In this document: in pieces, positions 21,300-24,200 of the stretch | How positions within the stretch are numbered: position 1 is the first letter of the stretch | Layout: each line of letters opens with the position of its first letter | Notes under the pieces: generated by a model | Databases searched by the model: none | Told to the model about the DNA's origin: nothing | The model's input: only the letters and a program-made list of their open reading frames with translations | NCBI GenBank assembly: GCA_905116865.2 | Contig: CAJHNH020001119.1 | Coordinates: 100,001-164,000 of the forward strand | Reading direction: 5' to 3' | From: Candidula unifasciata | Taxonomy: Eukaryota; Mollusca; Gastropoda; Stylommatophora; Geomitridae | DNA: 64,000 nucleotides | Program-made: the position numbers and the translations under genes

Positions 21300-24200
21300 C
21301 TGCAGTTTGAAAAAAAAAAACATATCTTGAACCAATATTCAAAGCTTTGTACTTTTAACTAAATATTATGATAAATCCAATAAGAATGTTTACTGTTTTA
21401 AACCTAAGAAGAATGTTTACTGTTTTAAACCTAAGAAGAATATTTATTTTTGTAAAGCTAAGAAGAATTTATCGTTGTAAACATAACGAGAATGTTTATT
21501 GTTGTAAACATAAGAAGAATGTTTACTATTGTAAACCTAAGAAGAGTGTTCACTATTGTAAATCAAAAAAAAATATTTATTATCATAACCGAATAGTGTT
21601 CATTTTAATAAACACCTATAACGACAGTTGACTGCCAAAAACCTCATAAGAATTTTTATAGCAGTACAGCAATAACGAATATTTTTTTCTGTGAAACGCA
21701 ATTAAAATGTTTACTGTGCTAAACCTAAAAAGAATGTTACTTATTGTCTTAAACCTAATAATAATGTGTTCAGTGTATCCACCCAGTGAAAATGAATGCA
21801 TTTTTTGTTTCAACCTAATAATTTTTACTGCTTTAAACCCAAAAAGAAAGTTTACTGTCATAAACCTTGTTAGAAAGTTTACTTTCTTGTGCCTAATAAA
21901 AATGTTTATTGCCTTGAACATAATAAAAAAATGTTTAATGTATCCACCCTAGTGAGAATGAATGCATGTTTTGTTTAACCTAATTTTTATTGCATAAATG
22001 CTAATGAACAAGTCTATTCTATTCATCCCAGTGAGAAAGATGCATGTCCTGTTCAATCTAAGAATATTTATAGAAATCAACTCAAAAGTGAAATGAAACA
22101 TATTTTCAAATAATCTCACAACCATTTAGAGATATGATTACATGTTCACATCTGGACACAGTATTTTCATGTGTCATACGTTGGGGGTGGAGGGATGGGG
22201 AGTATGTGTGTTTTTGTGGTAAATTGGTCAAGCTGTTTATCTTGCACTATTCCTGGCGATCATTCCTGGAGCAAGTGGACAATGTATTGATCGGCACTCA
22301 CAGAAAGAAGTAGAAAGACAGAAGGACATACTATACAACATGCAAATTGAAAGCTATAGTTACCGTGCCGGGAATAGAACCTGTTACCTCCAAATGACAT
22401 GTGGAAACAAGCGTGCTGAAAACACAACCAAGTAGGAAGCCCAAAATAAGGTGTCTTTGTTGGCATGTCTCTCTGGTTGTGTTCTTAGGATGCTTGTTTC
22501 CATAGCGAGGCGCCATTTGAAGATGACAGGTTTGGTTCCCGGCATGGCAATTATAGCTTTAGATTTTTATGTTGTCTTGTGTGTCCTTCTGTCTTTCTAC
22601 TTCTGTTTATGAGTGCTAATCAATACACTGTCTCTTTGTTAATTTTATATATATATATATTTCTACGGCTTCAAGGGTTCCCCCACTGTTAATTTATGTG
22701 AATGATTTGCAAGGGGATAGCCATTCTGAGGAAAGAGACTGAGCGGTATGGTATAACTCAAGGTAATGAAGCCGATCCTCTCAACTATAACTGTAAGTTT
22801 TACTTACCTCAGCTGTATAACCTCACATTAATTGTAGTGTTTTTGAGAAGTAGCAAGAATTACACAGGGTACTGCAGCTGTATACTCTCACATTAATTAT
22901 CATGTTTTTGAGATGTTGCCTAGAGTTACATAGCCCACCTCAGCTCTACTCTTTCACATTCACTGTAATGTTCTTGAGAAGTAGCATAGATTACATAACT
23001 CAGCTGTACAATCTAACATTCATTGTAATGTTTCTGAGAAGTAGCAAAGATACAATAACTTATCCCAGCTGTACACTCTCACCTTGACTGTAATGTTCTC
23101 GAGAAGTAGCAGGGATTACATAATTCAGATCTGCTTTACACTCTCACATTCAATGTAATGTTCTCGAGAAGTAGCAGGGATTACATAATTCAGATCTGCT
23201 TTACACTCTCACATTCAATGTAATGTTCTTGAGAAGTAGCAAGGATTACATAATTCAGATCTGCTGTACTCTCTCACATTTAATGTAATGTTTTCGAGAA
23301 GTAGCAGGGATTACATAATTCAGATCTGCTTTACACTCTCACATTCAATGTAATGTTCTTGAGAAGTAGCAAGGATTACATAATTTAGATCTGCTTTACA
23401 CTCTCACATTCAATGTAATGTTCTTGAGAAGTAGCAAGGATTACATAATTCAGATCTGCTTTACACTCTCACATTCAATGTAATGTTCTTGAGAAGTAGC
23501 AAGGATTACATAATTCAGATCTGCTTTACACCCTCACATTCAATGTAATGTTCTTGAGAAGTAGCAAGGATTACATAATTCAGATCTGCTGTACGCTCTC
23601 ACATTCAATGTAATGTTTTTGAGAAGTAGCAGGGATTACATAATTCAGATCTGCTTTACACCCTCACATTCAATGTAATGTTCTTGAAAAGTAGCAAGGA
23701 TTACATAATTTAGCTCTGATGTATACTCTAACCTTGACTGTAATGTTTCTGAGAAATAGCCAGGGTTGCATAATTCAGATCCGCTGTATATTCTCACATT
23801 CAGTGAGGCTAACCACATCTTCTACCCATCGGTGAGGATGTCCTTAGGGACTCTACCATCTTTCATGTATGCCCTAGGTATCTGAGCCCTGGGGAAAAAA
23901 ACTGTTCTGATATTTGCTCTCCCCAATATTCTCAGCTGCAAGCGCTCTCACCTTCAATGTAATGTTCTTGAGAAGTGTGTCTTCCAACACAGCCTGCAGC
24001 TTCCGGCTAATCTGCAATGACAGCTCCAAGGTCATGGTGCCATCTTGCTGGTGTGCTGAGTACAAGGAAGCCATGATACCTCCCTTCCGTGAAAGAAGTG
24101 CCTAAAAAGGGGAGAAAATGCCAGAGTAAATAATAATGTATTATTTGTATATTTCACACCTACAGAAATGTACACATAGTTACTACGTCAAGTTATTAAT

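Follow-up and report, generated by a model that had tools for sequence, protein, structure and literature searches.

In Candidula unifasciata, a minus-strand CCDC186 gene carried in its last coding intron a tandem array of 65-bp units (22800-23805) in which each unit copied the border between the penultimate coding exon and its own 5' splice site. With a probability of roughly 0.8, the array was formed when a segment spanning this donor was duplicated in tandem and in place, giving an intronic minisatellite that is probably near-neutral. Positions are those of the window, the whole 64,000-nucleotide stretch analyzed.

The CCDC186 gene and the intron carrying the array

Minus-strand exons in and beyond the window were joined into a protein whose top three matches were CCDC186 or CCDC186-like proteins of Biomphalaria, Bulinus and Elysia, which points to a heterobranch gastropod. 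The query was this joined exon set, lacking at least one exon; it retrieved 1152 proteins at E ≤1e-5 among 1997 candidates, and the best 120 of the 1152 were listed. The CCDC186 homologs among the matches listed carried the precomputed family PF27942. No Pfam match was obtained for the exon at 23952-24101 or for the 130-aa joined C-terminal piece, and no PDB match for the same exon. CCDC186 has been characterized as a maturation factor for dense-core vesicles (PMC10419233).

The penultimate coding exon (23952-24101, minus strand) comprised 50 codons in phase 0-0 and ended in TLLKNITLK, as supported by its translation, homologs and splice borders. The last coding exon (21204-21299, minus strand) ended in a stop codon, and the acceptor before it ended at 21300; a first, stricter motif search for this exon gave no match, and it was located with a looser one and supported by homologs and splice borders. 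Judged from the protein and the splice signals, the two exons would be separated by an intron of 2,652 nt (23951 to 21300), and the protein alignment, which is the basis for placing one intron here, appeared to read across it with conserved flanks. The same intron held an inverted repeat downstream of the array (22278-22632), with 119-nt arms that were 82% complementary.

Architecture of the array

TRF called a period of 65 with 15.2 copies at 22822-23802. The combination of TRF, a 32-mer scan and a profile placed 15 units on the minus strand at 22800-23757, of which 14 were complete or nearly so and the last ran off at model position 52. Their donor-like sites lay at 23732, 23667, 23602, 23537, 23472, 23407, 23342, 23277, 23212, 23147, 23082, 23017, 22957, 22891 and 22826, in line with the roughly 15 decoy donors claimed in the first-pass annotation. 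A truncated 16th unit with the donor-like sequence AAT/GTGAGAAT at 23797 was found by the profile at 23758-23805 on the same strand (model 18-65, E 6.8e-11). The array thus consisted of head-to-tail units within the range of about 10-100 bp that defines an intronic minisatellite, and it lay wholly within the intron in the one assembly available.

A profile built from the 15 array units without the native copy recovered the native exon border (model 1-44, E 3.6e-11), indicating that the native donor is itself unit 1 of the series. By this profile and by alignments, the native block occupied 23931-23976 (minus strand) and reached from -25 to about +21 relative to the true donor (AAG/GTGAGAGC, at 23951). 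The array had been placed directly downstream of the exon in the same intron; the intron was indeed the same, but 125 bases without a profile match (23806-23930, unstranded) intervened. No degenerate units were detected in this gap by the array-only profile, and about 118 kb of the contig contained no second copy of the gap sequence. The gap appears to have replaced approximately 38 nt of unit sequence, as an insertion with deletion would do, and it would mask any original adjacency of units 1 and 2. Apart from this interruption, the copies stood in the register of their source and adjacent to it, as in a tandem duplication of a segment carrying a splice signal.

Match between the units and the exon border

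A 32-mer taken from the border at the true donor (23951; -25 to +7) was compared with both strands of the 64-kb window, ungapped and with up to 10 mismatches allowed. Besides the native site, it matched 15 sites in the array; the rest of the window gave no match. Mismatches per unit were 1, 1, 1, 1, 2, 2, 2, 3, 3, 3, 4, 6, 6, 7 and 7 (median 3, n = 15). A match of 32 bases with about one mismatch, as originally proposed, therefore held for four units, that is, for part of the core only. Alignment extended the shared block beyond the length first proposed: the exonic part of the unit was the last 25 nt of the exon, and for 13 of the 15 units local similarity continued into the intron as far as +19 to +24, whereas for the other two it ended at +7. 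Since these intronic bases matched as well, the units were copied from genomic DNA and not from spliced RNA. Five units each agreed with the exon end at 24 of 24 bases (E 6e-7 per unit for a search space of about 118 kb), and the array scored 29.5 against the border, where the best of 20 shuffles reached 13. A chance origin of the match is excluded.

The same comparison was made for the other arrays of the gene. The control set comprised 32 TRF rows with a period of at least 15 (21 separate stretches, 98 kb), compared with 12 exon blocks and their 60-nt flanks, which had been positioned through matches to translated peptides and in part had approximate ends; each row was shuffled 20 times. The other 31 rows scored 6-15.5. 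Two were slightly above their own shuffle maxima (13.0 vs 12.0 at 43061, and 15.0 vs 14.5 at 61052), and the rest were at or below them. With none of the 31 rows far above its shuffles, seeding of the other arrays by exon borders was rejected for this set.

Several other repeats of the gene were observed. A 54-bp array of about 55 copies (57782-60733) started some 10 nt or less from the donor of the exon at 60952-60740; it repeated weak GTGATT sites and shared no exon sequence. The large N-terminal CCDC186 exon, on the contig just beyond the window (L006, 8685-9279), contained an in-frame 54-bp (18-codon) tandem repeat of about 11 copies with a SKEGIPEQENSVV-like unit, and another 54-bp array lay about 10 kb upstream. 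At 48046-51802, an open frame with integrase-like sequence (49441-50904, minus strand) was flanked by two stretches whose translations were nearly identical and which lay about 2.9 kb from each other; the arrangement resembles an LTR retrotransposon in a CCDC186 intron. A 75-base run, mostly of G, occupied 61413-61487.

Strength of the donor-like sites

Donor sites were scored in bits with mammalian donor frequencies and by ViennaRNA duplex energy to the U1 tail, scores that are not calibrated for molluscs. The true donor scored 6.72 bits and -9.6 kcal/mol. The base at -1 was T in 14 of 16 copies (13 of the 15 units and the truncated unit at 23797), and G at 23732 and 23082. As the first-pass annotation had expected, the loss of the last exonic G in most units went with weaker sites: a typical decoy scored 3.19 bits and -4.4 kcal/mol, and most lay at 3.2-3.6 bits and -4.4 to -4.9 kcal/mol. 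The unit donors at 23017 and 22957 were very weak. Three other donors of CCDC186 scored 1.61, 2.98 and 3.12 bits with U1 pairing of -6.0 to -6.9, so typical decoys were no worse than these in bits and weaker in U1 pairing; a fourth donor, AAG/GTTGCT (-2.2, -4.1), was left out of the comparison because its exon end was uncertain. Unit-internal acceptors that would create 15-nt micro-exons were also considered and found weak; these CTACTTCTCAAG-like sites, the 15 best of the intron, had a fair pyrimidine content and mostly A or G at -3.

Two sites were no weaker than the true donor. The unit at 23076-23107 (minus strand) carried the pseudo-donor AAG/GTGAGAGT at 23082, which did not differ from the true donor at any base between -3 and +7 and scored equally. 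At the far array edge (22800-22810, minus strand), GAG/GTAAGTAA (GAG/GTAAGT) at 22807 ranked first among the 145 GT dinucleotides of the intron, with 7.59 bits and -12.3 kcal/mol, and exceeded the true donor. If these two sites were used at times, the array would be a harmful load, since translation past the true donor runs for 25 codons into the intron and then meets a stop, and T at -1 could have spread as relief. We consider this unlikely. Computed scores that tie with or exceed the true donor speak for it, but the T may have spread by homogenization of one unit, a unit tree fits one G-to-T change plus one exception, and the two strong sites persist.

History of the array and constraint on the units

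Mean divergence was 4.9% among the nine core units and 29% among the six edge units. In the unit tree, the unit at 23082, with G at -1, grouped with the native site (support 0.77). The tree is compatible with one early G-to-T change, 23732 excepted; to account for the G at that site, one must invoke a reversal, an exchange or a second lineage. Changes in the units hit all three codon positions, as expected for copies free of coding duty.

The pseudo-donors might instead be functional decoys: by binding U1 snRNP, they would modulate how far the intron is spliced or retained, or offer protection from the poly(A) signals within it, and the dose of the CCDC186 C-terminus would then depend on copy number. 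The top 17 of the 145 intron GTs by bits included the true donor; the other 16 all fell within the span of the array, 14 of them being unit donors and two not. Read-through past the true donor would add the 25 codons and the stop, and of the intron's eight AATAAA or ATTAAA sites, one was within the array and the other seven lay further downstream. U1-holding pseudo-5' splice sites are described as silencing P element splicing (PMC7776569). However, descent from the exon border alone accounts for the high-scoring share, and 14 of 16 copies carry the weakening T. The border half of the unit differed from the rest in conservation at p 0.006 when the run-off unit was included and at p 0.08 without it; the border half is thus not clearly better conserved, which leaves the decoys without a firm sign of selection. 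We regard a decoy function as quite improbable.

The exonic part of the core showed one further pattern. Out of its 25 bases, edge units differed from the native sequence at 2-7 and single core units at 1-4, and the core consensus differed at one; in the next 14 alignment columns, the core consensus was among the furthest from native (7 of 14, gaps counted). Because the core consensus is closer to the native exon part than the decay of the edge units predicts, while standing far from it in the following columns, there is a hint of constraint or of conversion from the exon (hand-worked chance of about 0.05), to which no weight is given here. In the boldest reading, the array would vary in length and its U1-binding pseudo-donors, which repeated conversion from the exon would keep close to the true donor, would adjust splicing of the conserved CCDC186 C-terminus in the manner of a rheostat. 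We give this version little credence.

Direction of copying and uniqueness in the genome

The exon translation was aligned with 17 homologs, hand-picked from the best 120 of 1152. The last nine residues of the exon, TLLKNITLK, were identical in 15 of the 17, from molluscs to a mammal, showing that the exon is ancestral and older than the array; the exceptions were the bivalves Mya (TILKNMTLK) and Ostrea (TILKNITLK). In DNA searches of the species' own genome (1.34 Gb), the array edge as query gave at least five matches and two core units as query (E ≤10) at least eight, all in this array. These counts are lower bounds, as very common words were skipped, and the 46-bp native border was not among the matches, so equally short copies elsewhere would go undetected. 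Within that sensitivity, occurrence of the unit elsewhere, which would have pointed to a dispersed satellite or mobile repeat, was not supported. The proposal that the array was made by amplifying an exon border thus stood, its direction given by protein conservation and its source by the sole locus matched in the genome. The reverse, an exon border taken from an older satellite, was rejected as extremely improbable: sequence identity by itself is silent on direction and no point in its favor was found, but the TLLKNITLK end is shared by molluscs and a mammal, and no other locus with the unit appeared in the own-genome searches, in which short copies could be missed.

Comparison with known systems

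The Rogers model describes intron gain by tandem genomic duplication of an AGGT segment, with ATP2A1 and the potato RdRp as cases (PMC4974935). Those cases and this array have in common that a short genic segment bearing a splice signal was duplicated in tandem. As described, however, their outcome is a new intron. In CCDC186, by contrast, the duplicated segment straddles a donor that already existed, and its copies sit inside the old intron, which is still one intron as judged from the protein. In Schizosaccharomyces, SPOG_01682 and SOCG_00815 are described with 24-nt exonic tandem repeats around gained introns (PMC3629103, PMC4974935). They resemble this array in having several tandem copies with a splice signal and similarity that reaches the neighboring exon; by those accounts, though, the repeats are of exonic origin and an intron was gained across them, whereas this array is a series of pseudo-donors behind an existing donor.

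The pseudo-5' splice sites of P element IVS3 likewise resemble donors, lie close to a true one and could compete for U1 (PMC7776569). In the published description, these are two sites in the upstream exon acting with PSI and hrp48, in contrast to some 16 intronic sites made by duplication. TERT VNTR6-1 is also an intronic tandem array, with a 38-bp unit, and is reported to alter splicing (PMC11830802); it is reported to act through G-quadruplexes, and its unit is not described there as a splice-site copy (PMC11830802). The parallels as published therefore concern either AGGT-segment duplication leading to intron gain (PMC4974935, PMC3629103) or two pseudo-donors acting as a silencer (PMC7776569). 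Among the titles and abstracts by which the literature, largely open-access, was judged, none was recognized as an account of a minisatellite that grew from a working donor.

Proposed origin and significance

In the favored reading, in-place tandem duplication, a segment of about 65 bp over the 5' splice site of the penultimate exon (approximately -25 to +40) would have been duplicated in tandem where it stood. The copy adjoining the exon would have been kept as the working donor. The copies behind it, without coding duty, would have expanded by slippage or unequal exchange, the core being homogenized while the edges diverged, and an early G-to-T change at -1 would have spread to nearly all of them. 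Weighing against this reading are the 125-nt gap, the G at 23732, the unexpectedly close match of the core consensus to the native exon part, and the short copies that the own-genome searches could have missed. The splicing machinery probably ignores most of the pseudo-donors, since the true site is closer to the exon and, except against the two strong sites, stronger; the true donor is presumably the one in use, and the array would then be near-neutral.

Splice-site choice can be viewed here as a natural experiment: the intron combines, in similar context, the true donor, a copy that matches it at every base between -3 and +7, another site that is stronger, and about a dozen copies weakened mainly at -1. 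As a set within one intron, they bear on how position and the -1 base decide donor use. The array also points to a route by which a minisatellite may be born from a working splice site.
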